From Bacteroidia bacterium (GTDB taxonomy: Bacteria; Bacteroidota; Bacteroidia; UKL13-3): a DNA stretch of 48,904 nucleotides. A program made the position numbers and the translations under genes. Of the stretch, positions 37,206 to 48,904 are shown in pieces. Numbering within the stretch: the stretch's first letter is position 1; each line of letters starts with the position of its first letter. The stretch spans positions 1 through 48,904 of the forward strand of contig JAGVLJ010000035.1 in assembly GCA_020049855.1 (NCBI GenBank). The letters run 5' to 3'. The notes beneath the pieces are model-generated. The model was not told where the DNA came from. It worked only from the letters and a program-made list of their open reading frames with translations, and ran no database searches.

Positions 37206-38669
37206 ATGAAGAAAGTAGTCGGATTAGTATTGGTAGCAAGCCTGGGAGGCATTGTTGCCTTGGGCGTAAACAAATTATTTGACAGGGAGCGGAGTTCAGA
37301 ATTCGGAGCCATGCAGATGGCTCGTTATGCCAGTCTTGCCGAGGCAGGTCCTGGAATGACGCAGGATTTTACTGCTGTTTCAGAGGTTGTTACGCCAACT
37401 GTTGTTCACGTAATCACCACGGTTGAATCGGTTAGTTCAGGGTCTGTTCCTACTGACCCATTTGATTTTTTCAGGGGGCACGGTTTTAGTTTGCCTGATA
37501 TGGGGCCACAGGTAGGTTCCGGTTCAGGGGTTATTATTTCAGAAGATGGGTATATTATTACCAATAATCATGTGATAAACGGGGCAGCCAAAATTGAAGT
37601 AGTCCTAAATGATAAACGCAAGTACATGGCTGAGTTAATAGGCTCCGACCCCAATACAGATATTGCGTTGATAAAGGTGGAAGAAAAAAATCTCCCCTTT
37701 GCGGTTTTCGGTAATTCAGATGAAGTGAAAGTAGGCCAGTGGGTGCTTGCAGTAGGCAATCCTTTTAACCTTACTTCAACAGTCACCGCAGGTATAGTGA
37801 GTGCCAAAGGCCGTAACCTCAACCTGATTCGGGATCCGCAAAATCCGGAGAGCCGTTATGCCATTGAATCATTTATTCAAACGGATGCTGCGGTTAATCC
37901 GGGCAACAGCGGGGGAGCACTCGTTTCTATTGATGGGAAACTAATTGGAATTAATACGGCTATTGCGTCTCAAACAGGTTCTTTTTCGGGCTATTCATTT
38001 GCCGTTCCATCAAATATTGCAAAAAAAGTGATAAATGATGTAATGAAGTATGGCTCTGTTCAACGCGGATATTTGGGTGTTGAAATACGGGACGTAAATG
38101 CCGAGCTGGCAGATGAAAAAGGATTGAAGGATGTGAAAGGTGTTTATGTTGGAGCGGTAAATCCTAAAAGTGCAGCCGAAGAGGCTGGCATTAAAGCAGG
38201 AGATATCATTATTAAAGTGGGTGAGGTTTCAGTAAATTCTTCCTCCGAGCTGCAGGAGCAAATCAGTCGTAAAAATCCGGGCGATAAAGTTTCGGTATTG
38301 GTAAAACGTGACGGTAAAGAAAAACTATTTGACGTGGTACTTAAAAATAAAGAGGGTAAAACTGCTATTTCAGTCGAAACCAAACTTGATCAGGCAAGTG
38401 CTTTAGGGGCAAACTTTGAAAGTATTTCGCGCGAGGAGCGGATGAAACTGAAAGTTATCAATGGGGTAAAAGTGAAAAGCATTGGCGGAAGAAGTGCATT
38501 AAGCAAAGCCGGAATTCCGGAAGGGTATGTATTAACCCATATTGATAAAAAACCAGTTTATACAGTAGGCGATGTAAAGAAAATGCTGGAAGGTAAAAAA
38601 GGAGGAGTATTGCTGGAGGGCGTAAATCCTGATGGCAGTAAAGGTGTTTACGGAATTTCGATAGATTAA
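37206..38669 (+). CDS. DegP/HtrA-family (Do-type) periplasmic serine protease
   Basis: 487 residues. An N-terminal hydrophobic stretch (VVGLVLVASLGGIVALG) is a signal or anchor. The protease domain carries the full triad: His in IITNNHVINGAAK (~120), Asp in SDPNTDIALIKVEE (~150) and Ser in TDAAVNPGNSGGALVSIDGK (~233). Two PDZ domains follow: QRGYLGVEIRDV and AAEEAGIKAGDIIIKVG (~280-375), and VKSIGGRSALSKAGIPEGYV (~420-480). It degrades or refolds damaged envelope proteins. The gene is divergent from an ECF sigma/anti-sigma pair across a symmetric promoter, like the RpoE-DegP stress circuit in logic though not in gene order. A terminator follows. Confidence 0.95.
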   Translation: MKKVVGLVLVASLGGIVALGVNKLFDRERSSEFGAMQMARYASLAEAGPGMTQDFTAVSEVVTPTVVHVITTVESVSSGSVPTDPFDFFRGHGFSLPDMGPQVGSGSGVIISEDGYIITNNHVINGAAKIEVVLNDKRKYMAELIGSDPNTDIALIKVEEKNLPFAVFGNSDEVKVGQWVLAVGNPFNLTSTVTAGIVSAKGRNLNLIRDPQNPESRYAIESFIQTDAAVNPGNSGGALVSIDGKLIGINTAIASQTGSFSGYSFAVPSNIAKKVINDVMKYGSVQRGYLGVEIRDVNAELADEKGLKDVKGVYVGAVNPKSAAEEAGIKAGDIIIKVGEVSVNSSSELQEQISRKNPGDKVSVLVKRDGKEKLFDVVLKNKEGKTAISVETKLDQASALGANFESISREERMKLKVINGVKVKSIGGRSALSKAGIPEGYVLTHIDKKPVYTVGDVKKMLEGKKGGVLLEGVNPDGSKGVYGISID

Positions 38670-38690
38670 TTTTAGGACATCAATAATATA

Positions 38691-38723
38691 AAAAGGTCGG
38701 GTTTATTATCCGACCTTTTTTAT
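38691..38723 (+). terminator. Rho-independent terminator after the HtrA gene
   Basis: AAAAGGTCGG (38691-38700) pairs with CCGACCTTTT (38710-38719) around a 9-base loop, and the T-run continues. It begins 21 bases after the HtrA stop codon. The A-run on the far side would allow some bidirectional action. Confidence 0.92.
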
Positions 38724-39003
38724 TATCAAGGCATAATATGCATTTTAGCCTTCGGCTTCGCATTTTTATGCAGGTAATCTATCCCAACGTACAGTTATTT
38801 TGCAGGTCTATTCTTGAGAATTCTTTATAAATAAATAGCAAAGAACCCAAAAGGATAAGCAAGTGGGAAAAACTTTTATGAAAATGAGGGAAACCCAAAG
38901 CAACAAAAGGATTTTCCATCGTGTTTAGATGGTGAAAAATGATATTACTTTGTATAAAATTAAGAAGATAACAAAGGACAAGTAAAAACGAAAATATAAG
39001 TAC
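38724..39003. other. 280-base AT-rich spacer before the surface-protein array
   Basis: No gene seen. A small hairpin-like stretch (AGCC-TTC-GGCT inside ATGC/GCAT, ~38748-38773) and a TTACTTTGT at ~38945-38953 that could be a -7 element are the only features noticed. A similar TTACTTTGT lies at ~47042-47050, ahead of the second copy of the leader element. Confidence 0.4.
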
Positions 39004-39214
39004 GCGTTACTAAAAACGTTCCTCAGTACTAAAACCGCGAAATTTTACAGGTAGGGGCAGTTTGAAGTGATGCACCCTTACAGGGTGTGTTCTTCTTCTG
39101 GTCGGCTCTACGTGGGTGCTTCGCGGTACCTTGTGCAGACTGTCAGTTGGGGTTCACGCCCTTTCTGTTTTGGGACTTTTTTCGTATATTGCTATGTACT
39201 AAACATTAATAATA
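39004..39214 (+). repeat. Leader element, copy 1 (upstream of surface-protein gene 1)
   Basis: Direct-repeat partner of 47091-47302. It contains a long imperfect hairpin (39034-39127): outer arms ACCGCGAA and TTCGCGGT (8 pairs), a middle stem CAGGTAGGG with CTCTACGTG (one mismatch, one wobble), and an inner stem CACCCT-TAC-AGGGTG. After it come ~60 conserved bases with a possible promoter: TTTC (39162-39165), 19 bases, TATATTGC (39185-39192). 39057-39204 differs from the second copy at only 4 of 148 positions with no gaps. Confidence 0.85.
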
Positions 39215-41674
39215 ATGAAACGGCTGTTGACTCTTCTCTTCCTTCTTTTAGCCTTTCAGGGTTTTGCCCAGGATTATAAGCGTGCTTCAATATGGTATTT
39301 TGGGGATAGTGCAGGAGTAAATTTTAACACCATTCCTCCATCAGCATTGACCAACGGGGCAATGAGTACTTGGGAGGGATGTGCCACCATTGCTGACACC
39401 AATGGAAATCTTTTATTTTATACTAATGGGGTTAAGATTTGGAATAAGAATCACCAATTCATGGATAATGGAACTGGACTGTTGGGAAATATTTCTTCCA
39501 CTCAATCTGCAATTATAGTCCCACAACCGGGAAATGATTCGATTTTCTTCTTGTTCAATACCTATGACAATGGCCTATTCTATTCGCGCATTAATATTAA
39601 TCTGAATGGAGGGTTGGGTAGAGTAGTTGAAAAAAACGTTCTCTTACAAGTACCAATGACTGAAAAAATTGCAGGGTGCTTTCATTCAAATCAAAAAGAC
39701 GTTTGGGTTGTGGCACACGAGCATGGAAGCAATAATTTTTGTTCTTACTTGATTACTTCCGATGGGTTAATTAAATGTCCCATTATTTCAAGTGTTGGTC
39801 TTGTATATAATAACCCTTCATATGGTTACGATGTCGGTCAACTAAAGATATCCAAAAATGGAACAAGAATCGCTGTTGTTTCCTATTTTTCCTATCGAAT
39901 AGAATTGTTTAGTTTCAATTCTCTAACGGGTATTGTTTCTAACCCTGTAACATGGCTTACGACAAATACAGGCAGTTTAACCTATGGTGTAGAGTTTTCA
40001 AGTAACAATAAAAAACTCTATGTCACTGAAACTGGCAATACTGGTAAATACCTAAAGCAATTCGACATAAGCACCAGCGATACTGCTTTGATTAATCAAT
40101 CAAGAGTTATTTTAGATACTTTCCCTCCTTTTTTAGCTTATGGCCTACAGATGGGCATTGATGGCCGTATTTACATGGCACGGAAAGATTCTACATTTCT
40201 TAGTGTTATTCAATATCCCGATTCATCCGGTTTTGCCTGCGGTTACTTAAAAAATGGGTTGAGCATAGCCCCAAAAAAATCTGTGTATGGGGGACTGCCG
40301 ACAATTATCTCCTCTTACTTACGCAGGGATTCTTTACTTGATTTCAGCTATCAATTCCTTTGTCCTACCAATCAAGCCGCCTTTGCTGCCAAAAACATTA
40401 CAACCACACCGCAATGGATAATTACAAAACTCAGTTCACCCGGTAACTGGTCTTATAACAATGTTAACTTTAATCACCAGTTTGATACCGGAACCTATGC
40501 AGTAAAACTAAAATCAGGAACCGACAGCATTACCAAAACCATTATTGTTGGCTGGAGTGGTGAAATGATTGTCTCCAATGATACAACAAGGTGCCAGACC
40601 GACAGCATCCTTTTAAGTGTACAAAACTCACAGGCTTTTTCCTGCATTACCTGGAACGATACTATTAGTTCAATTACAGCAACGGCCAAAACAAACGGGA
40701 CTTACCGGGTAAGCGCATGGAACAAACAAGGCTGCAAACTTTCGGACAGTATCCGCGTTCGTCTTTTTGCAGTACCACCCGATCCCTTGGTAAAGCCTAT
40801 GCCTGATACCATTATTTTCTGTAAAGGAAACAGCATTGCGTTAACACCCGACAGCGGGGCTGACTTCCACTGGCAGGACGGTTACCCGATTGCTTCGCGC
40901 ATAATTGACACGATTGGGCTTTTTTATACAACTTGGTCAGACAGTTTCACCTGCAAGCGGGGTGATACCACACGTTTAATCTTTTACCCGGCTACTCCAT
41001 TGCAAAACCCCTTACCTGATTCGGTTACTTTCTGCATCGGGCAAACGATCACTTTAAACCCTGACAGCGGCATTAATTTCCTTTGGCAGGATAATTACCC
41101 AAATGCCACACGCATCATTGACAGTGCCGGACTTTTTTTTACAAACTGGTATGACACCAACGGGTGCCGGATGGCCGACAGCATCCGTATTAAAACATAT
41201 TCTGTTACCAAACCCACAGTACAACAATCAGGCGACAGCCTTTTTGCTTTTGGTAATTTTGCTCAATGGCAATGGCTATTTAATAACCAACCTTTGAACG
41301 GGGCAATTTTTGCAAAATACAAAGCCCTGCAAAACGGGTTTTACAAAGTACGGGGAACCGATACATTCTCTTGTATTGCTGTATCTGATTCCGTTAATAT
41401 TACGAATGTTTCTATTCGCCAATTAATATCACCAAATGAAATATCCGTCTTCCCTAATCCGGTAAACAATGTATTGCACATTGAACTGAACACTGCCACA
41501 GAAAAATTACAATCGGTGTATTTATTGAACAGCACAGGGCAGCTTGTTTACTGTGAAACCTCTCCCAATCCTTCTGAAACTGCAATAAACTGTTCCGCAT
41601 TTCCGAAGGGGATTTATCTGCTAAAATTATTTACAACTAACAAAACCTACTACCAAAAGTTAATTATCGAGTAA
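39215..41674 (+). CDS. Surface-protein paralogue 1: WD40-like propeller, Ig-like repeats, T9SS sorting domain
   Basis: 819 residues. Signal peptide MKRLLTLLFLLLAFQGFAQ, then a ~350-residue beta-propeller-like domain opening DYKRASIWYFGDSAGVNF with LLFYTNGVKIWNKNHQFM and STQSAIIVPQPGNDSIFFLF, known from many Bacteroidota T9SS proteins. Next are a PKD-like part (~375-450), an Ig-like part, two tandem ~70-residue repeats (PMPDTIIFCKGNSIAL and PLPDSVTFCIGQTITL, each with a WQD core), one further module, and a type A sorting domain from VFPNPVNNVLHIEL (~741). Predicted to be exported and displayed on the surface; the ligand is unknown. It shares its repeat modules with gene 2 and its leader and signal peptide with gene 4. 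Confidence 0.88.
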   Translation: MKRLLTLLFLLLAFQGFAQDYKRASIWYFGDSAGVNFNTIPPSALTNGAMSTWEGCATIADTNGNLLFYTNGVKIWNKNHQFMDNGTGLLGNISSTQSAIIVPQPGNDSIFFLFNTYDNGLFYSRININLNGGLGRVVEKNVLLQVPMTEKIAGCFHSNQKDVWVVAHEHGSNNFCSYLITSDGLIKCPIISSVGLVYNNPSYGYDVGQLKISKNGTRIAVVSYFSYRIELFSFNSLTGIVSNPVTWLTTNTGSLTYGVEFSSNNKKLYVTETGNTGKYLKQFDISTSDTALINQSRVILDTFPPFLAYGLQMGIDGRIYMARKDSTFLSVIQYPDSSGFACGYLKNGLSIAPKKSVYGGLPTIISSYLRRDSLLDFSYQFLCPTNQAAFAAKNITTTPQWIITKLSSPGNWSYNNVNFNHQFDTGTYAVKLKSGTDSITKTIIVGWSGEMIVSNDTTRCQTDSILLSVQNSQAFSCITWNDTISSITATAKTNGTYRVSAWNKQGCKLSDSIRVRLFAVPPDPLVKPMPDTIIFCKGNSIALTPDSGADFHWQDGYPIASRIIDTIGLFYTTWSDSFTCKRGDTTRLIFYPATPLQNPLPDSVTFCIGQTITLNPDSGINFLWQDNYPNATRIIDSAGLFFTNWYDTNGCRMADSIRIKTYSVTKPTVQQSGDSLFAFGNFAQWQWLFNNQPLNGAIFAKYKALQNGFYKVRGTDTFSCIAVSDSVNITNVSIRQLISPNEISVFPNPVNNVLHIELNTATEKLQSVYLLNSTGQLVYCETSPNPSETAINCSAFPKGIYLLKLFTTNKTYYQKLIIE

Positions 41675-41715
41675 TTTTTGAAATCAAGATATAAATATTG
41701 AAACTTAAAACCAGA

Positions 41716-41946
41716 TTAGTACTTAAAATTCAGTAATTCACTTAACGACATGTCCAAAGCATCTGCTAGTATCCGCAAAGAACAAATCGTAACATTGTAT
41801 TCCCCACGTTCAATGCGCCCAATCTGTTCAGCGTGGTTATCACACAAATCCCCTAATGCTACCTGGGTTAAACCCTTCGCTTCGCGAATTGAACGAATTC
41901 GTTTTCCCAAGAGGCCAAGATATTTAGGGTCTTTAACATTTTGCAC
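41716..41946 (-). CDS. XRE-family DNA-binding regulator 1 (divergent from surface gene 2)
   Basis: 76 residues from a GTG at 41946; no in-frame ATG exists nearby. It is a single Cro/C1-type HTH: LLGKRIRSIREAKGLTQVAL, DLCDNHAEQIGRIERGEYNV and LRILADALDMSLSELLNF. No dimerisation or sensor domain is attached, so it should bind DNA as a small dimer. It lies between surface genes 1 and 2 but on the opposite strand, and shares ~74 bases of intergenic DNA with gene 2 that hold a palindrome. I infer that it controls gene 2, and perhaps itself. Similar lone XRE proteins occur in restriction-modification and mobile loci, but no such genes are present here. Confidence 0.9.
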   Translation of the reverse strand: MQNVKDPKYLGLLGKRIRSIREAKGLTQVALGDLCDNHAEQIGRIERGEYNVTICSLRILADALDMSLSELLNFKY

Positions 41947-41981
41947 AGGGCAAATTGTACCCGAAAGAGATTTTATCTAAG

Positions 41982-42015
41982 AACATACATGTTGTATTTA
42001 TTTTATATATATTTG
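41982..42015 (+). promoter_or_regulatory. Predicted operator and -7 promoter element of surface gene 2
   Basis: AACAT-AC-ATGTT (41982-41993) is a perfect 5-2-5 palindrome; TATATTTG (42008-42015) matches the -7 consensus. With a 19-base spacer the -33 element would sit at 41985-41988, inside the palindrome, so a bound XRE dimer could block initiation. The GTG start is only 5 bases after the -7 box. Confidence 0.55.
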
Positions 42016-42020
42016 AAGTG

Positions 42021-44501
42021 GTGAAAATAAAAGTATCTCCTTTTTTGATAATAATTGCCATGCTTTTTACAACTTGTATAAAGGCACAGGATTATAAACG
42101 TGCCTCAATATGGTATTTTGGTGATAGTGCGGGCATCAGTTTTAGCTCAAATCCTCCCATTGCGCTATTAAACAGCGCTATGAAGGCTGTTGAAGGTTGT
42201 GCGACAATGTGTGACACCAATGGGAACTTACTCTTCTATACCAACGGCATTACAGTTTGGAATAAGAATCATCAAGTAATGCATAATGGAGATAGCATTA
42301 AGGGGCATTTATCTGCAACTCAAGGGGCTTTGATTGTACCCCAACCAAATAATGATTCAATTTTTTACCTGTTTACTACTCCTTATGCTTATGATCTAAG
42401 TAATGGTTTAAGATATTCGGTAATTGACATTAGCAAAAATAGTGGACTAGGCTCTATTATCAAAAAGAATTTGCTATTGCAGACCTCAGTAACAGAAAAA
42501 ATAGGAGCTACATTTCATGCGAATGGGACAGATTTCTGGATTATAACTCATGGATATGGAAATAATTATTTTTATGCTTACCTGCTTACTCAGGATGGGT
42601 TATTAAACTGTCCGGTTATGTCCGCTATTGGTACAGGATATAATTTTGACCCTTTCATTTCGCAGGGACAGCTTAAAATTTCATCGAATGGGAAAAGAGT
42701 AGCTTCTACTCTGTATACAACATATTATAAAGTAGAATTGTTCGATTTCGATAATTCAATCGGATTTTTATCAAATTCTATTAACATAAACACTACGGAT
42801 TTAAGTAGCAACCCATATGGAGTTGAGTTTTCACCAAATAATAAAAGGCTTTATGTTGCGGAGCGGGGCCGTTACCTGAAACAATTTGATTTAGTTTCTA
42901 ATAATGCAACCCAAATTAACAACTCAGCCTTTATACTTGATAGCTTCCCGTCCTCATTCTCCGCACCTTTACAAATAGGAACGGACAAAAGGATTTATTT
43001 AACATTTAAAAATGACTCATCTTACCTGAATGCAATTTTATTTCCAGACTCATTGGGAGCATCGTGCGGTTATGTTAGGAAATATGTACCTCTTGCCAAT
43101 AGAAAACCTGCTTATGGGCTTCCTTCAATAGTGTCGTCATATTTGGCAATTGACACATTAATAAACTTTAATTATCAGTTTATTTGCCCAAGTAATTTTG
43201 CCACTTTTAAAGCAAAAAACCATAGTTCATTACCACAATGGACAATCACCAAACTAAGCAGTGCAGGTAGCTGGGTGTACAATGGAACAACTGCAACCCA
43301 TAATTTTGATTCAGGGACGTACACAGTAAAACTTAAGGCCGGAGCGGACAGCATAATAAAAACAATTACGGTGGGATGGAGTGGGGAATTACTTCTCGCA
43401 TCTGACACTAACCGATGCCAAACCGATAGTGTTTTTTTAACAATACGCAATTCCCAATCATTCTCTTGTATTAAATGGAATGATACTATAAGTTCCAATT
43501 CAATCACAGCTAAGACAAACGGAACATACCGGGTAAGCGCGTGGAATATGCAAGGGTGCAAACTTTCAGACAGCATTCACGTTCGCCTTTTTGCCACACC
43601 ACCTGACCCCTTGGTAAAGCCCATGCCTGATACCATCATATTCTGCAAAGGAAACAGCATTGCATTGATACCCGACAGCGGTGCTAACTTCCAATGGCAG
43701 GATGGTTACCCATTTGCTTCACGTATTGTTGACACAACCGGGCTGTTTTATACAAGCTGGACTGACAGTTTCACCTGTCAGCGGGGTGACACCACACGTT
43801 TAATCTTTTACCCGACTACTCCATTGCAAAACCCTTTACCAGATTCAGTTACTTTCTGTATTGGTAAAACCATGACCCTTTTGCCTGATAGCGGCACTAA
43901 TTTCCATTGGCAGGATAATTATCCAAATGCCACACGCACCATTGACAGTGCAGGACTTTTTTATACGAACTGGTTTGACACAAACGGGTGCAGAATTTCC
44001 GACAGCATACTTGTTAAAACATATTCTGTTACCAAACCGACCATACAGCGTTTAGGGGATAGCCTGTTTACTTCAGGTAGCTTTAGCCAATGGCAATGGT
44101 ATTATACCGGCCAACCTGTCAATGGAGCTACTTTTACAAAATACAAAGCCACGCAAAACGGATGGTACAAAGTTTTGGGTCGTGATGTAAACCAGTGTAT
44201 AGCTACCTCAGATTCGGTAAACCTTACCAATGTCTTTGTGTATAACCCAACATTTGAAAATGAAATAACTGTTTTTCCTAATCCGGTAAACAGAGTGCTG
44301 CATATCCGCTTGCAAAAGGCAGCGGGTCAACTCACGGGGCTGCAACTTTACAGCAGTACCGGGCAGCTTGTTTACCGTGAAACCTCACCTAACCATTCAG
44401 AAGCTGAAATTGATTGTTCAGCCATGCCGAAAGGACTTTATCTGCTATCTCTCATAATAGCTAACAAAGCGTACTTTCAAAAAATAATAATTCACAACTA
44501 A
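42021..44501 (+). CDS. Surface-protein paralogue 2: propeller, Ig-like repeats, T9SS sorting domain
   Basis: 826 residues from the GTG at 42021; the frame is open back to a TTG at 41955, but that region holds the promoter and operator, and a signal peptide (VKIKVSPFLIIIAMLFTTCI, ending KAQ) follows the GTG. GTG at 42018 is an equal alternative. The layout repeats gene 1: DYKRASIWYFGDSAGISF, propeller to ~370, PKD-like and Ig-like parts, the same two ~70-residue repeats (PMPDTIIFCKGNSIALIPDS and PLPDSVTFCIGKTMTLLPDS), and a sorting domain from VFPNPVNRVLHIRL (~748). The repeat section is close to gene 1 in DNA as well as protein, while the propeller is more diverged. Its stop overlaps the convergent XRE gene 2 by 4 bases. 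Confidence 0.87.
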   Translation: MKIKVSPFLIIIAMLFTTCIKAQDYKRASIWYFGDSAGISFSSNPPIALLNSAMKAVEGCATMCDTNGNLLFYTNGITVWNKNHQVMHNGDSIKGHLSATQGALIVPQPNNDSIFYLFTTPYAYDLSNGLRYSVIDISKNSGLGSIIKKNLLLQTSVTEKIGATFHANGTDFWIITHGYGNNYFYAYLLTQDGLLNCPVMSAIGTGYNFDPFISQGQLKISSNGKRVASTLYTTYYKVELFDFDNSIGFLSNSININTTDLSSNPYGVEFSPNNKRLYVAERGRYLKQFDLVSNNATQINNSAFILDSFPSSFSAPLQIGTDKRIYLTFKNDSSYLNAILFPDSLGASCGYVRKYVPLANRKPAYGLPSIVSSYLAIDTLINFNYQFICPSNFATFKAKNHSSLPQWTITKLSSAGSWVYNGTTATHNFDSGTYTVKLKAGADSIIKTITVGWSGELLLASDTNRCQTDSVFLTIRNSQSFSCIKWNDTISSNSITAKTNGTYRVSAWNMQGCKLSDSIHVRLFATPPDPLVKPMPDTIIFCKGNSIALIPDSGANFQWQDGYPFASRIVDTTGLFYTSWTDSFTCQRGDTTRLIFYPTTPLQNPLPDSVTFCIGKTMTLLPDSGTNFHWQDNYPNATRTIDSAGLFYTNWFDTNGCRISDSILVKTYSVTKPTIQRLGDSLFTSGSFSQWQWYYTGQPVNGATFTKYKATQNGWYKVLGRDVNQCIATSDSVNLTNVFVYNPTFENEITVFPNPVNRVLHIRLQKAAGQLTGLQLYSSTGQLVYRETSPNHSEAEIDCSAMPKGLYLLSLIIANKAYFQKIIIHN

Positions 44502-44740
44502 TGAATGCCTTGAAAAAACTCTTCCAAAGTGATTTGATGAATATCAAGAATCCTTATCAGGCTTTTGATAGTAAAATTTGTTCCCGACTCCATTCTCCAG
44601 TATTGGATAGTAGGAAGAGAATAAGCAAAAGCAAAAGTTTCGTAACTGGAATAGCCTTTATCAAGCCTCAGTTGCTTGATTTTATCAGCAACCTGACTAA
44701 TTCTGCCTTCTTCCGGTACAATGCGCTTTTTTCTTGCCAT
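44498..44740 (-). CDS. XRE-family DNA-binding regulator 2 (divergent from surface gene 3)
   Basis: 80 residues: basic N-terminus MARKKRIVPEEGRISQVADK, then a Cro/C1 HTH with IKQLRLDKGYSSYETFAFAY, SLPTIQYWRMESGTNFTIKS and LIRILDIHQITLEEFF. It is clearly a different XRE from regulator 1 (recognition-helix area SLPTIQYWRMESG against DNHAEQIGRIERG). It starts 81 bases from surface gene 3 and faces away from it, the same arrangement as regulator 1 with gene 2. I infer it governs gene 3. Its stop overlaps the gene 2 stop by 4 bases. Confidence 0.88.
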   Translation of the reverse strand: MARKKRIVPEEGRISQVADKIKQLRLDKGYSSYETFAFAYSLPTIQYWRMESGTNFTIKSLIRILDIHQITLEEFFQGIH

Positions 44741-44778
44741 TCAAATGGCAAGTTGACATATACTGAAAAAAAATGTTA

Positions 44779-44815
44779 TATCATATATGATAGATAATAA
44801 AATACTTTATATTTG
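44779..44815 (+). promoter_or_regulatory. Predicted operator and -7 promoter element of surface gene 3
   Basis: TATCATATATGATA (44779-44792) is a perfect 14-base palindrome, and TATATTTG at 44808-44815 is a full -7 match. A 19-base spacer puts the -33 element at 44785-44788, inside the palindrome. The ATG follows the -7 box by 6 bases. Position for position this is the layout found at gene 2, but with a different palindrome. Confidence 0.6.
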
Positions 44816-44821
44816 CTATCC

Positions 44822-46825
44822 ATGAAAAGAGTTTATTCCTGTTTATTATTCTTTTTACTCCTTGGTGGTATTTGTTTTGCTCAGGATATTAAGCGTGCCA
44901 ATGTGTGGTATTTTGGTTACAATGCCGGGTTGGATTTTAACTTTCCGACTCCGATTAAATTACTTAATGGGCAAATAAATTCAGTAGAAGCAGCAGCAGC
45001 GATTTCTGATACAAACGGTGTATTACTATTCTATTCTGATGGAAGAAATGTTTGGAACAAAACCCATCAGCTTATGGCCAATGGCACGGGACTTTTAGCG
45101 GATCAGTCATCTACGCAGGGAGTAATTATAGTTCCTAAGCCGGGTTCAAGCAATCTTTACTATATATTTACTACAAGTCAGGGTAATCCTTGTTACTATA
45201 ATATTGTTGACTTGAATTTTGATGGAGGCAAAGGTGATATAATAGCAAAGAATATTATTCTAACAGGGAATACGACTGAAAAAATTTCAGTTGCAAAGCA
45301 TAGTAATGGGAAGGACTACTGGATAGTCACGCATGAGTATAATGGCAACCGTTTTTATAGTTTCTTACTAAATGATAAAGGAATTATAGATTGTCCTGTA
45401 ATAAGCAGTATTGGTACAATATACAATGGATCCGTACATGCTGCTGGACAAATGAAATTTAGTGCTAACAGTAGTAAATTGGCGGTTGCAACATGGGGAG
45501 GTAATACTGTAGAGGTATTTCAGTTTAATACAAGTACTGGAGTTTTGTCTAACATTATTACATTAGGTAATTTATTTGTTCCCTATGGAGTAGAGTTTTC
45601 AACGAGTAATAACTTTTTGTACGTGATGGAACGAAGCAAAAAATTATTTCAATATGATTTATTACACAATACTACAGATACAGCAATTAATAACTCAAAA
45701 CAACTAATTTATTTAGCAAATAGCTCGGCAAATATTGTAGCACTTCAAATGGCTGCGGACAATAAAATCTATCTCGCTTTACCAGATTCATTTTATATTG
45801 CTTCAATATCCTACCCAGACTCCTTGGGAAGTGCTTGTGCATTTGATACAAATGCAGTGGATTTATCGCCTAAACGTTCATCTTACGGGTTCCCTTCGTT
45901 TGTTCCAGCTTTCTTCCTCACTGTTCCAATGGATTTTGCCTACTCCTTATTATGTAATGAGCGAAAGGGGATTTTTGTAATAAAGGCAATTTCAACCCCA
46001 CCCTCATTAAATTGGCAGATTAGAAAAATGCCAAATGGGAGTATCACTGCATTTACTACACAATCTGTTAGCTATACCTTTCCTGATTCTGGCTTATATG
46101 AGGTGCGTTTAATAGCCAATAGTGATACGGTCACTAAAACTGTTTTCATTGACGCTCCCATACTCCCGATTACCGATACATTAGGGTGTGGAGTAGACTC
46201 GGTTGTGTTAATAGTTCCCAGCACGTACCGTTGTTTACAATGGGATGATACTTCCGCTTCCGCGTACAGTCGTTCAGTAAAGGCAGGCGGTACTTATTAC
46301 GTGCAAGGATACAATTCAAGTGGTTGTTTAATTACAGATAGTGTTAAAATTCACTTCAGTCCATCGCCTCTCCAACCGACTATAACAAAGATAAATGACA
46401 GTTTGCAAAGCAGTCCGGCATTCCATTATCAATGGCTACTCAATGATACGTTACTGACTGGAGCAACTACGCAAAGTATTAAACCAATAAAAGCGGGTCT
46501 GTATAAAGTATTTGTTACTGACAGCAACGGCTGCTCCAATATGAGTATAGCCTATTCATCTAATGTTGGAGTATTAAACCCATATATCAACGATAACATT
46601 CGCGTCTATCCAAATCCGGCAAGTGATAAACTGTATATAGAATCTTATAGTAAAATATCGGAGGTGAAAATCTATGACATTACCGGGCGAATCGTATTTG
46701 AAAAATCGGCTATTCCCAATTCATCTTTACAAATTAATTGTAACGAATTTCTTAGGGGGATATATTTTATAAAAATTAATTCAAACCTAAACACCTATTA
46801 CTCTCACAAAATAATCATACAATAA
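44822..46825 (+). CDS. Surface-protein paralogue 3: propeller, PKD/Ig-like modules, T9SS sorting domain
   Basis: 667 residues from the ATG at 44822 (a TTG at 44813 falls in the promoter). Signal peptide MKRVYSCLLFFLLLGGICFA, propeller from DIKRANVWYFGYNAGLDF with LLFYSDGRNVWNKTHQLM and STQGVIIVPKPGSSNLYYIF to ~370, then a PKD-like module (WQIRKMPNGSITAFTT, YTFPDSGLYEVRLIANSD), an Ig-like module (LGCGVDSVVLIVPSTYRCLQ), one with FHYQWLLNDTLLTGATTQSI, and a sorting domain from VYPNPASDKLYIES (~592). It lacks the tandem WQD repeats of genes 1 and 2, which explains its shorter length. Its C-terminal modules match gene 4 rather than genes 1 and 2. Confidence 0.87.
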   Translation: MKRVYSCLLFFLLLGGICFAQDIKRANVWYFGYNAGLDFNFPTPIKLLNGQINSVEAAAAISDTNGVLLFYSDGRNVWNKTHQLMANGTGLLADQSSTQGVIIVPKPGSSNLYYIFTTSQGNPCYYNIVDLNFDGGKGDIIAKNIILTGNTTEKISVAKHSNGKDYWIVTHEYNGNRFYSFLLNDKGIIDCPVISSIGTIYNGSVHAAGQMKFSANSSKLAVATWGGNTVEVFQFNTSTGVLSNIITLGNLFVPYGVEFSTSNNFLYVMERSKKLFQYDLLHNTTDTAINNSKQLIYLANSSANIVALQMAADNKIYLALPDSFYIASISYPDSLGSACAFDTNAVDLSPKRSSYGFPSFVPAFFLTVPMDFAYSLLCNERKGIFVIKAISTPPSLNWQIRKMPNGSITAFTTQSVSYTFPDSGLYEVRLIANSDTVTKTVFIDAPILPITDTLGCGVDSVVLIVPSTYRCLQWDDTSASAYSRSVKAGGTYYVQGYNSSGCLITDSVKIHFSPSPLQPTITKINDSLQSSPAFHYQWLLNDTLLTGATTQSIKPIKAGLYKVFVTDSNGCSNMSIAYSSNVGVLNPYINDNIRVYPNPASDKLYIESYSKISEVKIYDITGRIVFEKSAIPNSSLQINCNEFLRGIYFIKINSNLNTYYSHKIIIQ

Positions 46826-46843
46826 CATTTAAAATTTAAGTCT

Positions 46844-46984
46844 ATGAGGAAGACAGTACAAATTGTCTTGATGACCTTGCTTTGTCTTTTTACAACGCAA
46901 TCACAAGCACAAAATGAACCCTGCGGTACAGACCGCATGATGCAGTATTACCGCAGCTTGGACAACAACCAGTTTGATGCATAG
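46844..46984 (+). pseudogene. Truncated 5' fragment of a secreted protein gene
   Basis: 46 codons from the ATG at 46844 to a TAG at 46982. A good signal peptide (RKTVQIVLMTLLCLFTTQSQ, ending AQ) is followed by NEPCGTDRMMQYYRSLDNNQ and FDA, then stop. The CGTD start after the signal resembles the N-terminus of M43-type (pappalysin-like) T9SS metalloproteases, but only ~20 residues remain, so that is a weak guess. It starts 18 bases after gene 3's stop and ends ~107 bases before the second leader copy, so the rest was probably lost when the gene 4 unit arrived. Confidence 0.55.
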
Positions 46985-47090
46985 ATAATCAAGTGAAAGT
47001 GAAATGATAAAAAAATGTTTGTTATATTCAAAAAAAGTTGCTTACTTTGTTAAAGACAAAATAAACAGAAATAAATAAAATAATATTTAA

Positions 47091-47302
47091 GCGTTACTAA
47101 AGTAGTTCCTCTACAATAAAACCGCGAAATTTTAACACGTAGAGGGCAGTTTGAAGTGATGCACCCTGACAGGGTGTGTTCTTCTTCTGTTCAGCTCTAC
47201 GTGGGTGCTTCGCGGTACCTTGTGCAGACTGTCAGTTGGGGTTCACGCCCTTTCTGTTTTGGGACTTTTTTCGTATATTGCTACGTACTAAACAAATTAA
47301 TA
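47091..47302 (+). repeat. Leader element, copy 2 (upstream of surface-protein gene 4)
   Basis: Direct repeat of 39004-39214. The hairpin (47121-47216) is even better paired here: ACCGCGAA with TTCGCGGT, CACGTAGAG (47136-47144) with CTCTACGTG (47195-47203) without mismatch, and inner stem CACCCT-GAC-AGGGTG. Then come the same ~60 bases with the possible TTTC-19-TATATTGC promoter. 47146-47293 matches copy 1 at 144 of 148 bases. The two copies lie 8,087 bases apart in the same orientation. Confidence 0.85.
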
Positions 47303-48904
47303 ATGAAACGGCTGTTCGCTTTCTTCTTCTGCCTATTAACTTTTCAGGGTTTTGCCCAGGATTACAAGCGCACGCTTAACTGGTACTTTGGGGATAGTAT
47401 TGGGATGTCATTTTCTACTAACCCACCTACGTTACTTTCAAAAGGGGGGCTTAGTAAATCTGAAGGTTCAGCTTCTATTTCGGATAGTAATGGACAATTG
47501 TTGTTTTATACAAATGGGGTCACAGTCTGGGATAAAAATAATGGGGTGATGTTAAACGGAACTGGATTAAACGGTCATTGGTCATCAACGCAAGGCTCCG
47601 TTATTGTCCCACAGCCTGATAATGATTCTTTATTCTATATTTTTACAACCGATGCTATGGGACAGGCAAAGGGCTTGCAGTATTCGATAGTAAACATGAA
47701 TGCCAATAATGGTTTGGGTGCAGTTATAGTCAAAAACGTTTTACTGCAAACACCTGTTTGTGAAAAATTAGCCGCTACCAAGCATCAAAATGGGAAGGAT
47801 ATATGGGTTGTAGCTCATGGATTTGGAAGCAATACTTTTTTTGTTTATTTAATAACAAAACAAGGGTTGGTTAATTGTCCGATTATATCTAATTCGGGTT
47901 CAATTCACCCTTCAGCAAATGGTAATAACGCTCAGGGGCAGATGAAATTCTCTGCTGATGGGCACAAAATTGCCGCCACAGTATTTGACTTAAATAATAG
48001 TAAGGTTGATCTCTTTGATTTTGACAATCTGTCAGGAAAACTGTATAATTATATACCTATTAGTAGTGTATTTCTACCGTTTGGAGTTGAATTTTCAGAA
48101 AATGCTCATCACATATTCATTACAACAATTTATAATGAACTATTAACTTATCAGATAAATTTGAGCGGATTATCCGAAATTGAGAACTCAAGAACAGTTT
48201 TAGCAGATTATCCAAATGCTTATTGGATCACAACGCATTTGCAATTGGCCTCAAATTCTAAAATTTACGTTACATTTCCAGACTCTTCCCATTTGGGAGT
48301 AATTAATTATCCTGATTCCGGTCACGCACTAAGCCAATATAATGCGTTTGATGTTAGTGTTAATACTCAAAAAACCAACTACGGGCTACCTAACTTCCTA
48401 AGTTCCTATTTCTACCGTCCAACTTTAGATTTTGTGTACGCATCAAACTGTACATCAAGTATTGCAACCCTTCAGGGCAAAGCAAGTGTTCCTCCTTCTG
48501 AATGGAATTGGAGAGTAAAGCGCTTTTTGAATGGCAACATTGCAAGTTACAATACTCAAAATATTAGTTACACTTTCCCTGATTCTGGCTGGTATGAAGT
48601 GCGACTCATTGCAAACAGTGATACAGTTGTTAAAAATATCTTTATTGACGCACCAATCCTTCCATTGGTTGATACTTTGGGTTGTGGTATGGATTCAGTT
48701 GTTTTAAAAATTCCTGATTCATACCGATGCATACAATGGAGTGATACAGCTGCCTCGCTTTATAACCGTATTATCAAAACAAATGGAACTTATACTCTTC
48801 AGGGGTATAATTCAAATGGATGTTTGATTACAGATAGCATCAGAGTCAATTTTTCCCCTCCGGCCACCAAGCCAATCATTACAAAGATAAATGACAGCCT
48901 GCAA
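47303..48904 (+). CDS. Surface-protein paralogue 4 (3' end outside the window)
   Basis: Open from the ATG at 47303 to the right edge, 534 codons without a stop. Signal peptide MKRLFAFFFCLLTFQGFAQ, close to that of gene 1. The propeller opens DYKRTLNWYFGDSIGMSF with LLFYTNGVTVWDKNNGVM and STQGSVIVPQPDNDSLFYIF and ends near ~370 (NYGLPNFLSSYF). PKD-like and Ig-like modules follow (YTFPDSGWYEVRLIANSD, LGCGMDSVVLKIPDSYRCIQ, FSPPATKPIITKINDSLQ), strongly like gene 3. The T9SS sorting domain is expected beyond the edge but not seen. Propeller identity to gene 1 is only about half by eye, in contrast to the near-identical leaders. Confidence 0.87.
   Translation, partial: MKRLFAFFFCLLTFQGFAQDYKRTLNWYFGDSIGMSFSTNPPTLLSKGGLSKSEGSASISDSNGQLLFYTNGVTVWDKNNGVMLNGTGLNGHWSSTQGSVIVPQPDNDSLFYIFTTDAMGQAKGLQYSIVNMNANNGLGAVIVKNVLLQTPVCEKLAATKHQNGKDIWVVAHGFGSNTFFVYLITKQGLVNCPIISNSGSIHPSANGNNAQGQMKFSADGHKIAATVFDLNNSKVDLFDFDNLSGKLYNYIPISSVFLPFGVEFSENAHHIFITTIYNELLTYQINLSGLSEIENSRTVLADYPNAYWITTHLQLASNSKIYVTFPDSSHLGVINYPDSGHALSQYNAFDVSVNTQKTNYGLPNFLSSYFYRPTLDFVYASNCTSSIATLQGKASVPPSEWNWRVKRFLNGNIASYNTQNISYTFPDSGWYEVRLIANSDTVVKNIFIDAPILPLVDTLGCGMDSVVLKIPDSYRCIQWSDTAASLYNRIIKTNGTYTLQGYNSNGCLITDSIRVNFSPPATKPIITKINDSLQ

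Follow-up and report, generated by a model that had tools for sequence, protein, structure and literature searches.

The window analysed here, a stretch of 48,904 nucleotides from a Bacteroidia bacterium, carries four propeller genes in tandem, all diverged paralogues, and the second and third of them stand head to head with two small regulator genes, XRE1 and XRE2. We consider it probable that each small XRE is a private, self-regulated switch, most likely a repressor, of the divergent surface-protein gene. On the sequence side, this reading is carried by (i) the layout and its recurrence, (ii) the retention of the operator with the regulator and not with the cargo, (iii) the covariation of recognition helix and operator, and (iv) the single perfect copy of each operator in the genome; binding, repression and not activation, autoregulation and the trigger of the switch are inferred.

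Array architecture and predicted promoters

The features that enter the argument are as follows:

39215..41674, + strand: array gene 1, propeller protein with a T9SS sorting domain, without XRE partner
41716..41946, − strand: XRE1, 76-aa single-domain HTH_3 regulator, GTG start, recognition helix DNHAEQIGR
41951..41959, − strand: possible XRE1 −7 box TACAATTTG, one base longer than the consensus and 4 bases before the GTG, suggested by the distance rule
41982..41993, no strand: predicted XRE1 operator AACAT-AC-ATGTT (AACATACATGTT), kept in four genomes beside unrelated partners, single genomic copy
42008..42015, + strand: gene 2 −7 box TATATTTG, by the rule from PMC6847099; start codon 5 bases on
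42021..44501, + strand: array gene 2, propeller protein with signal peptide and T9SS sorting domain
44498..44740, − strand: XRE2, 80-aa single-domain HTH regulator, recognition helix LPTIQYWR, 3′ end overlapping the end of gene 2
44779..44792, no strand: predicted XRE2 operator TATCATATATGATA, core CAT-NN-ATG, with a near-identical site beside an LPTVQYW homologue in another family
44808..44815, + strand: gene 3 −7 box TATATTTG; start codon 6 bases on
44822..46825, + strand: array gene 3, propeller protein with signal peptide and T9SS sorting domain
47303..48904, + strand: array gene 4, propeller protein running off the contig, without XRE

The first-pass annotation had described two T9SS-tailed propeller genes, each facing its own XRE, with a palindrome, a −7 box and a start codon a few bases on, and all of these coordinates are confirmed. 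The products of genes 2 and 3 combine a signal peptide, recognized by heuristic, with a C-terminal T9SS type A sorting domain (PF18962/TIGR04183, E about 1e-13 to 1e-15), the two features that define T9SS type A cargo. Gene 2 starts with GTG at 42021, with an alternative in-frame GTG at 42018, and gene 3 with ATG at 44822. XRE1 is an HTH_3 protein above the Pfam cut-off (40.3 bits, E 3e-10) and its homologues in G012 and G079 likewise start with GTG; XRE2 is diverged from HTH_3 (15.1 bits, under the cut-off of 23), and its profile still matches the controller (C) proteins of restriction-modification systems.

In Flavobacterium johnsoniae, transcription starts 4-5 nt past the −7 box and a −33 motif is hardly seen (PMC6847099). 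By this rule, the transcripts of genes 2 and 3 are predicted to start at about 42020-42021 and 44820-44821, with leaders of 0-2 nt, and the palindrome centres fall at about −33 and −35, respectively. The proposal that the palindrome covers the −33 element therefore reduces to a position inside the polymerase footprint. Both mRNAs are thus predicted to be near-leaderless, in a phylum where such transcripts are uncommon: 5.5% in F. psychrophilum (PMC9723704), and 3.7% with leaders under 10 nt in B. thetaiotaomicron (PMC7366714). Relatives keep the palindrome but not the −7 spacing, the box lying 9 bases from the ATG in G001 and 14 bases in G324. Nor did near-leaderless cargo prove general among XRE partners, of which only 1/42 has its box within 9 bases.

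Genes 1 and 4, which have no XRE, are preceded by a common element of 216 bp (window 39000-39215 and 47088-47304, 92% identical). The element occurs in three copies in the genome, the copy on C65 (G000:C65:5394-5598) preceding the truncated start of a similar gene, and further in G002 (C69:13931, C73:2291, C4:7745); in a second species it is 90-94% identical, compared with only about 45% identity between the proteins. It folds as a single long hairpin (RNA MFE −67.8 kcal/mol, z −3.1) with compensatory change at 7 pairs in a 5-sequence alignment, gives no Rfam match, as is true of the whole of 38600-48904, and may be a leader RNA or a recombination site. Behind gene 3, at window 46844-46984 (+), 46 codons survive from the 5′ end of an M43 metallopeptidase gene (~1900 aa, T9SS-tailed), which follows the propeller genes intact in G001 and G324 and, in G002, to the end of the stretch read.

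Recurrence of the regulator-operator pair

Three further genomes of the family, G012, G079 and G082, encode XRE1 homologues of 61-67% identity; there the divergent partner is a LamG-like protein (G012) or a different secreted family, mutually homologous between G079 and G082; none is a propeller protein. The sequence AAGAACATnnATGTTG, exact or one base off, is present in all XRE1-clade spacers (window, G012, G079, G082), and AACATNNATGTT is kept in 4/4 inspected intact spacers of the clade, beside exported partners of three unrelated families, a count that leaves out L186 (54% identity, stop inside the XRE frame, no palindrome) and L188, which is truncated by a contig end and lacks the upstream spacer. 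The window's genome (2.9 Mb) contains AACATNNATGTT once, compared with 5 occurrences of a control pattern.

As for XRE2, TATCATATATGATA has exactly one copy in the genome, with one-mismatch matches three times inside long ORFs and once outside, and a homologue from a different family (G324; 58% identity, helix LPTVQYW versus LPTIQYW in the window) faces a propeller gene across the site TATCATATATGATG, ending ...GATG, this partner having 32.6% identity to gene 3 and 39.6% to gene 2. Helix DRKYYW goes with ACGGCATATATGCCTCATTT in G001 and, in G324, with the imperfect ACGGAATATATACCTCATTT; for the congeneric XRE2 of G001 and the G324 protein with this helix the sequences are ACGGCATATATGCC and the imperfect ACGGAATATATACC, with a downstream CTCATTT common to both. 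Pairing of an XRE with a propeller-T9SS gene thus recurs in the same genus and in another family. In the latter, L226 (G324:C5:162000-181500) is a second mixed array with four XRE genes, one XRE1-like and three XRE2-like, one of the four overlapping the start region of a same-strand propeller gene; it also holds several propeller genes and an M43 peptidase, as well as a short ORF similar to the first part of that peptidase.

XRE pairing is a wide theme in Bacteroidota and not peculiar to the propeller family, which mostly lacks an XRE: among about 40 relatives surveyed, a divergent XRE outside the window was found in only two (G001:C87:41606 and G002:C31:13613-14734), with more found later in G324. 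A partner survey covered XRE2-type genes from 79 named-collection loci. Divergent orientation was dismissed as a special trait, since HxlR regulators have a divergent upstream neighbour as often (26/28) as XRE2-type genes (69/77). The nature of the partner is more telling: 36/69 divergent partners of XRE2-type genes (52%) are exported, against 19/152 (12.5%) of the remaining divergent genes of those loci (p=1e-9) and 7/26 of the HxlR partners (p=0.04), some of these 7 looking like false positives. A first signal-peptide heuristic wrongly accepted Rossmann-fold N termini; the export counts use stricter rules, which still let through one or two such N termini in the HxlR set. Clustering divides the partners into 47 unrelated groups, and in 26 of these the first heuristic gave most members a signal peptide; T9SS-tailed proteins, lipoproteins and others are represented.

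Palindromes alone prove little, because short perfect ones are common in AT-rich spacers; generic palindrome length was set aside as evidence, perfect palindromes with arms of at least 6 bases being present in 51/124 XRE spacers and 33/109 control spacers (p=0.10). The informative pattern is CAT-NN-ATG extended by two or more complementary flanking pairs; across Bacteroidota it occurs in 16/124 upstream regions of related small XREs, where shuffling leads one to expect 0.4 (maximum 2 of 40) and controls give 0/109 (p=3e-5). In an enlarged set, the site accompanies 14/89 proteins with a YW recognition helix, so that most XRE2-type spacers lack it, and 10/34 XRE1-type proteins; the count for YG and other classes is 0/60, and a CAT-NN-ATG rule for all XRE2-like proteins was therefore rejected.

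Within this pattern, the three bases next to CAT can be predicted from helix identity (Mantel r=0.35, p=4e-4, homologous-partner pairs excluded), the p-value serving as a guide only since the code set is small, comprising 26 sites selected for the motif, and contains related, non-independent proteins. Identical flanks are shared by 11/19 pairs with at least 7/8 helix identity versus 4/290 other pairs. Examples include NRV with CCG, PTI/PTV with TAT and NSGKQI with CCC; helix INRVQYW has CCGCAT beside three different partners, and helix NSGKQI has AGCCCATATATGGGCT in two genomes of different families with different exported partners. A held-out set of 29 homologues, mostly of another helix class, yielded two more sites with flanking pairs, and the held-out INRVQYW homologue L261 lacks a palindromic site. 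In L083, L085, L090, L091, L093, L111 and L119, an XRE2-type regulator is paired with a membrane-anchored protein starting MKQIFPKEI; this pair recurs in Flavobacteriaceae and related MAGs, with the candidate operator TTTCATnnATGAAA in the spacer of four.

Regulator and palindrome travel together beside unrelated cargo, with covarying helix and flanks and single genomic sites, which supports the earlier suggestion that each regulator is specific for its own gene. Judged from sequence, independent private control of genes 2 and 3 is well supported.

Proposed mechanism and competing explanations

In the proposed mechanism, an XRE dimer would bind a single CAT-NN-ATG palindrome between the two genes. 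On the cargo side it would overlap the stretch that RNA polymerase occupies at the promoter (about −40 to −28), and on the XRE side the same operator, some 35-45 bases ahead of the regulator's start codon, would limit the regulator's own synthesis. The recognition helix would read the bases flanking CAT/ATG, giving each regulator-gene pair its own address. As the XREs carry no ligand domain, the switch would be triggered by concentration, a partner protein or noise. That the operator lies within the cargo polymerase footprint and near the XRE's own start makes repression of the cargo, together with self-limitation, the most likely outcome; XRE1 and XRE2 are proposed as self-regulated switches by analogy with controller proteins.

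Among solved structures both proteins come closest to controller proteins, activators at low concentration that turn into repressors at high concentration, and the XREs might likewise activate the cargo and repress themselves, in the way of these proteins or of lambda CI. We regard this as unlikely, since a dimer centred at about −33 to −35 should block polymerase at both window promoters; the same position favours repression, and repression of the cargo by the XREs is likely. A different possibility, and a quite improbable one, is that the XREs regulate only themselves, the operators belonging to their own promoters and the surface gene being a bystander. It would account for the tight distance from operator to own start in XRE1-type genes (mostly 35-47 bases) and for how much the distance to the start on the partner side varies (G079 and G082 exceed 200 bases), and divergence alone is common among lone regulators, as HxlR illustrates; it does not account for the enrichment of exported partners, even if the HxlR comparison reaches only p=0.04, or for an operator inside the cargo promoter in both the window and G324.

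A tandem array of diverged paralogues with different regulators, and the second array of several XREs and propeller genes in G324, also recall antigenic variation, and one-at-a-time expression had been raised in the first-pass annotation. Mutual exclusion of the two switches is nevertheless very improbable: nothing connects them, no site is common to both, neither operator has a second perfect copy in the genome, an XRE is missing from genes 1 and 4, no element for cross-control was seen, and two different private operators speak for independence instead. The palindromes could also be chance products of AT-rich spacers and the XREs unrelated leftovers of mobile or restriction systems, in keeping with long palindromes being not clearly commoner in XRE than in other spacers. 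This account, already disfavoured, is barely credible given that, in genomes far apart, rare sites of 12-14 bases go with the same recognition helix, and that the window's genome has one copy of each.

The private, probably repressive switch at genes 2 and 3 may be one case of a general pattern, which the first-pass annotation does not mention and which is the more valuable part of the analysis: regulator and operator form a portable module, its code can be read in part, and it stands next to exported proteins of many unrelated kinds. We give roughly even chances to the broader proposition that solitary controller-protein-like XREs across Bacteroidota form modular private switches for exported proteins, with helix residues that specify the CAT-NN-ATG flanks, a module that can pass among unrelated surface genes, and arrayed paralogues under independent control. 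How Bacteroidota choose among T9SS-secreted and lipoprotein surface molecules is poorly known. If these pairs are real switches, many uncharacterised XRE genes could be assigned an operator and a target from the helix-operator table, control of the cell surface gene by gene would become directly testable, and a set of small orthogonal regulators would be supplied. A published description of the pattern was not found in the open-access literature searched, outside of which most subscription journals lie.

Relation to known regulatory systems

The PDB matches of XRE1 and XRE2 are led by C.AhdI (E 7e-8 for XRE1, 2e-10 for the XRE2 profile), accompanied by C.BclI and Esp1396I. Like the XREs, the C proteins (C.AhdI, C.BclI, C.Esp1396I, C.Csp231I) comprise a single HTH domain of about 75-100 aa and have a palindromic operator in the spacer upstream of their own gene, which on the XRE side is a sequence-level likeness; they are autoregulators that act on palindromes within their own promoters, and leaderless transcripts are common among them (PMC4824078). 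Unlike the C proteins, the XREs have as partner an exported protein on the opposite strand, and a single CAT-NN-ATG site in place of the C.PvuII-like boxes GACT-n3-AGTC, which usually form two operators. No restriction-modification genes lie beside the XREs in the window or L226-L228, where the neighbours are propeller/T9SS genes, so the XREs do not belong among controller proteins proper. Phage CI/Cro-type and RstR-type repressors (HTH_3), RstR being a sub-threshold NCBIfam match of XRE1, share the divergent promoters, the operator between them and the single-domain HTH, but the XREs have no neighbouring phage or element genes and use one site in place of an operator array.

Two further systems invite comparison. 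PorXY-SigP of Porphyromonas also concerns T9SS-related expression; according to PMC7712824 it is global and acts on the secretion apparatus, whereas the XREs would be local regulators at single cargo genes. The invertible promoters of Bacteroides surface genes likewise switch surface components gene by gene and, according to PMC4747536, do so through DNA inversion. At the XRE pairs, where the examination covered short repeats inside the spacers, no inverted repeats flanking the promoters were noticed, and a switch of protein and operator is proposed instead.
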